DNA of 64,000 nt from the NCBI RefSeq assembly GCF_945277285.1, contig NZ_CALYPR010000001.1:1-64000 (forward strand), given 5' to 3'. Of this stretch, positions 7,872-7,888 are shown in pieces (position 1 is the stretch's first letter; every line of letters starts with the position of its first letter). Made by a program: the position numbers and the translations under genes. The notes under the pieces were generated by a model. The model worked only from the letters and a program-made list of their open reading frames with translations. It did not search any database and was not told where the DNA came from. The stretch is from an uncultured Bartonella sp. (GTDB lineage Bacteria > Pseudomonadota > Alphaproteobacteria > Rhizobiales > Rhizobiaceae).

Positions 7872-7888
7872 TTAAGAATCGTTCTAAA
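7872..7888. promoter_or_regulatory. Candidate Irr/ICE-type iron-control operator upstream of rirA
   Basis: TTAAGAA-TCG-TTCTAAA; reverse complement TTTAGAA-CGA-TTCTTAA. One mismatch to the TTTAGAA-N3-TTCTAAA consensus as recalled for rhizobial Irr; about 36 bp upstream of the rirA ATG. Confidence 0.55.

Follow-up and report, generated by a model that had tools for sequence, protein, structure and literature searches.

The iron-control element (ICE) of the Bradyrhizobium type has the consensus TTTAGAA-N3-TTCTAAA. Irr binds DNA when it is heme-free and represses or activates depending on the position of the ICE, and Bradyrhizobium has no other global iron regulator than Irr, which there carries a heme regulatory motif that serves its degradation (review PMC7762939). 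In Agrobacterium tumefaciens, Irr is described as lowering rirA in low iron (Hibbing and Fuqua 2011, as cited in PMC10374146), and Brucella Irr has been found to bind the rirA promoter by electrophoretic mobility shift assay (EMSA) in a study that also used DNA affinity purification sequencing (DAP-seq) (PMC10374146). The H-box of the hbp genes of Bartonella quintana is also bound by Irr, according to Battisti 2007 as cited in PMC3799009. Here we consider a palindrome upstream of rirA in the first 64,000 nucleotides (the window) of contig NZ_CALYPR010000001.1 of an uncultured Bartonella sp. (GCF_945277285.1). We found that this palindrome is very probably a real Irr binding site of the ICE type, which would lower rirA transcription in low iron. 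The wiring of Irr to rirA is already published in Rhizobiales and this is another case of a known mechanism; what may be new is that blood-borne Bartonella have selectively lost the operator.

The palindrome, TTAAGAATCGTTCTAAA at 7872-7888, agrees with TTTAGAA-N3-TTCTAAA in 13 of its 14 defined positions (1 mismatch) and is separated by 36 bp from the rirA ATG (7925-7927). A sequence-only reading of the window had claimed a near-consensus ICE before rirA, and its sequence, coordinates, spacing and mismatch count were all found to be as claimed. The site lies in the ~600-bp gap between ntrY and rirA, distant from the ntrY end, in an intergenic region of 29% GC. The features of the locus are:

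7316..7924, strand not assigned: intergenic region between the divergent genes ntrY (-) and rirA (+)
7863..7868, + strand: putative -35 box TTCACA of the rirA promoter, from a consensus scan and from TTC..A being kept in most Bartonella
7872..7888, strand not assigned: very probable Irr operator (ICE box) TTAAGAA-TCG-TTCTAAA, palindromic, with 1 mismatch and a conserved position
7885..7890, + strand: putative -10 box TAAATT, overlapping the right half of the ICE, from a consensus scan and from TAAA being kept in most of the genus
7913..7918, + strand: probable ribosome-binding site AAAGGA, by sequence inspection
7925..8383, + strand: rirA, encoding the Fe-S iron regulator RirA (152 aa), from its NF008886 match and cysteines

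RirA was identified by NCBIfam NF008886 (260 bits vs a cut-off of 193), and its three cluster cysteines (C91, C99 and C105) do not vary; an alternative start, GTG at 7907, lies upstream in the mechanical open reading frame. As in Agrobacterium and Brucella, an ICE-type palindrome is found directly upstream of rirA and irr is located elsewhere in the genome. The half-sites differ, being TTAAGAA/TTCTAAA here and TCTGGAA or TTTGGAA / TTCTAAA or TTCAAAA in those genera, and the site, here a predicted one, is closer to the ATG (36 bp) than in either of them. The neighbours of rirA are ntrYX here and bhuQ in Brucella. With the Bradyrhizobium ICE the site shares its palindrome and, presumably, a position-dependent repression or activation; unlike Bradyrhizobium Irr, the Irr of this genome shows only the HHH (HXH) site. 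The B. quintana H-box resembles it in being an Irr operator within the same genus, a likeness drawn from the description in the citing paper rather than from sequence, and differs in that it is described at other promoters (hbp) and in a blood-borne species.

The source genome comprises 2.45 Mb in 9 contigs, and its closest named relatives by RirA (~91% identity) are Bartonella apis, B. apihabitans and B. choladocola, which places it in the bee-type Bartonella. We compared 71 Bartonella genomes, in which the rirA upstream region was readable for 13 genomes of the bee/tamiae type and 52 others. The clade which keeps the site contains the bee-type species, related metagenome lineages and B. tamiae, and comprises 14 genomes: these 13 and G017, an 85%-complete assembly from which rirA was not recovered. 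All 13 readable upstream regions of this clade contain an ICE with ≤ 1 mismatch at -52 to -54. Outside Bartonella, an ICE was found upstream of rirA in 57 of 58 Rhizobiales loci, including those of Agrobacterium, Rhizobium, Neorhizobium, Shinella, Gellertiella, Mesorhizobium and two of the three Ca. Tokpelaia loci. In 56 of these 58 a site with ≤ 2 mismatches lies within 120 bp of the ATG, where shuffled sequences lead one to expect 0.16; the remaining two are one Tokpelaia locus with its site at -162 and another Tokpelaia locus without a site. Close relatives and remote Rhizobiales alike thus keep the palindrome. Its conservation outside Bartonella indicates that the rirA operator is an old Rhizobiales feature, and the bee-associated lineage of Bartonella would have the ancestral wiring, with RirA under the control of Irr.

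The gene for the presumed binding protein is present. The irr gene of this genome (L002), which adjoins a fabA-like gene, matches NF045678 with 206.6 bits (cut-off 150), and irr was found in all 71 Bartonella genomes. Together with the conserved palindrome and the sites at iron genes described below, this supports the earlier proposal of an Irr operator; the ICE consensus which it had used agrees with the other near-perfect sites of the genome (sufB and a TonB-dependent receptor), and the Agrobacterium precedent which had been invoked was confirmed through the citing paper (PMC10374146). In 30 genomes checked for Irr autoregulation, the 200 bp upstream of irr contained no good ICE, and no RirA self-control boxes (TGA-N9-TCA) were found within 250 bp upstream of rirA in the 7 genomes checked.

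A promoter consensus scan identified TTCACA-N16-TAAATT at 7863-7890, and both the TTC..A and the TAAA elements persist in most of the genus. The operator would therefore fill the spacer between the putative -35 and -10 boxes and overlap the -10 box. This placement fits repression of rirA by Irr in low iron. In a shortage of iron and heme, heme-free Irr would bind between the -35 and -10 boxes and block RNA polymerase, rirA transcription would fall and less RirA would be made while iron uptake needs derepression; when heme rises, Irr would leave the DNA and rirA would be expressed. We infer from the sequence that Irr binds here, where the promoter lies and in which direction the control runs, and repression in low iron is the likely reading, following the Agrobacterium description and the Brucella EMSA. 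A number of points weigh against it. The promoter match is weak, with 3 sites found vs 2.4 expected and a shuffled region also yielding it. The ICE pattern is not over-represented genome-wide, and a site of equal quality is missing in blood-borne Bartonella, so that rirA is retained in the genus without it.

The palindrome might also be a true Irr site from which Irr activates rirA, or at which it represses rirA as a roadblock to transcription that starts further upstream, from a promoter near the TTGACA motif at 7817-7822, since Irr is able to act in both ways (PMC7762939). We regard this as unlikely: the TTGACA is without a good -10 box after it and is absent in one sister genome, the + strand has a single promoter-like match, which the ICE overlaps, and Irr of Agrobacterium is described as lowering rirA in low iron in the work cited in PMC10374146. 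The ICE placements within this genome differ, the rirA site lying inside the promoter (repressor-like) and the receptor site ~10 bp upstream of a TTGACA (activator-like).

A palindrome which arose by chance in AT-rich DNA and has no function was also considered, and it should be noted that a single site of this kind is, taken alone, only moderately surprising in promoter DNA that is rich in AT. Within 120 bp of the ATG (104 positions) we expect 5e-4 sites with ≤ 1 mismatch at the local composition (29% GC). In 2.45 Mb the expectation is ~12 at local composition or ~1 at the composition of the whole window; 3 were seen. A reversed control pattern was even commoner than the ICE pattern genome-wide at ≤ 3 mismatches, and as the pattern is not enriched, its frequency is no argument for function. 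What goes beyond chance is placement, with all three of the best sites lying upstream of iron genes (rirA, sufB and the TonB-dependent receptor), and the conserved position of the rirA site, kept over 13 Bartonella genomes and matched at nearly all of the other Rhizobiales loci. Given these two lines of sequence evidence, chance is strongly disfavoured and highly improbable. The sufB site is a near-perfect ICE, TTTAGAACCGTTTTAAA, at G000:C3:185591-185607 (L006:1501-1517) before the Fe-S assembly operon, and an ICE with ≤ 1 mismatch was found there in every bee-type/tamiae upstream region read, the exceptions being G017 (misplaced start) and G084 (not read). The receptor site (G000:C2:71636-71652; L005:1501-1517) precedes a gene for a TonB-dependent receptor of the siderophore/heme type and is kept in the bee-type sisters.

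Mur and Zur boxes differ in consensus from the ICE. It is very improbable that the site serves another Fur-family protein (Fur/Mur, Zur or an Irr-like paralogue) instead of Irr: two further Fur-family genes, fur and zur homologues, are present in the genome and an Irr-like paralogue (34-43% identity) occurs in most of its bee-type sisters and in B. tamiae, but the genome of the window, in which the site is present, yielded no such paralogue, and the Brucella data favour Irr (PMC10374146). In G007 (L346) and G003 (L347), the paralogue is without the HXH heme motif and adjoins a gene for a metal ABC transporter binding protein.

In the blood-borne Bartonella, the rirA site was eroded (at least 3 mismatches) in 51 of the 52 readable upstream regions, the exception being Bartonella sp. 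A05 with 2 mismatches. A tree of RirA and Irr groups the blood-borne species in a single, fully supported clade and requires three changes of the site trait in all. A sufB ICE (≤ 2 mismatches) was kept in 30 of 56 non-bee genomes, mostly in the same place, compared with 1.3 expected from shuffled sequences, and it persists as ATTAGAATTATTTTAAA in many blood-borne species, which argues that Irr is not simply gone or changed in specificity. To judge from these upstream regions, the blood-borne clade has lost the rirA operator selectively, with irr retained and the sufB site mostly so. A replacement operator, TTTTGCAAAA, was considered in these species and rejected as too variable between species. 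The histidine triad of Irr reads HHH in the bee-type/tamiae clade and HYH in every blood-borne genome read; a loss of heme sensing through this change was also rejected, as the described heme motif HXH is kept. In two 1.4-Mb Bartonella genomes rirA is a broken remnant (G063:C1:551517-551780 and G030:C13:249391-249820) and in G009 and G032 (1.4-1.5 Mb) it was not found; irr is intact in all four.

The presence of the operator is paralleled by heme genes. A ferrochelatase above the cut-off was found in all 14 genomes of the site-keeping clade (in this genome at G000:C1:338454-339413) and in none of the 57 others, and uroporphyrinogen decarboxylase (hemE) showed the same split in the 10 genomes tested. 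As hemB (PF00490) was not found in any of the 71 genomes, the bee-type species and B. tamiae would carry out late steps of heme synthesis while lacking this early step. The blood-borne species may possibly have cut the link from Irr to rirA together with the loss of ferrochelatase (and of hemE, where tested), the circuit being rewired upon reliance on host heme while the bee-type species keep the ancestral circuit; we put this forward tentatively, and the coupling of operator loss to heme-gene loss is a hypothesis because there is a single contrast between two clades. Bartonella sp. A05, in which the site is kept and ferrochelatase is absent, suggests that heme-gene loss came first. These genomes offer a natural comparison, as heme-dependent relatives lost this single operator and irr remained, and this makes the rewiring of an iron network testable as a lineage shifts from gut symbiont to blood parasite.

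Some weaker ICE-like sites were also seen in this genome. A Dps site with 2 mismatches is taken to be chance or uncertain, its position not being conserved in the sister genomes. A catalase gene has a 2-mismatch site upstream (G000:C1:362176-362192; L016), which 10 sister genomes, B. tamiae among them, have in a comparable position with 2-3 mismatches. Two sites, with 3 and 2 mismatches and 19 bp apart, lie upstream of a DUF882 gene (G000:C1:341919-341954; L012), ~2.5 kb from the ferrochelatase gene.
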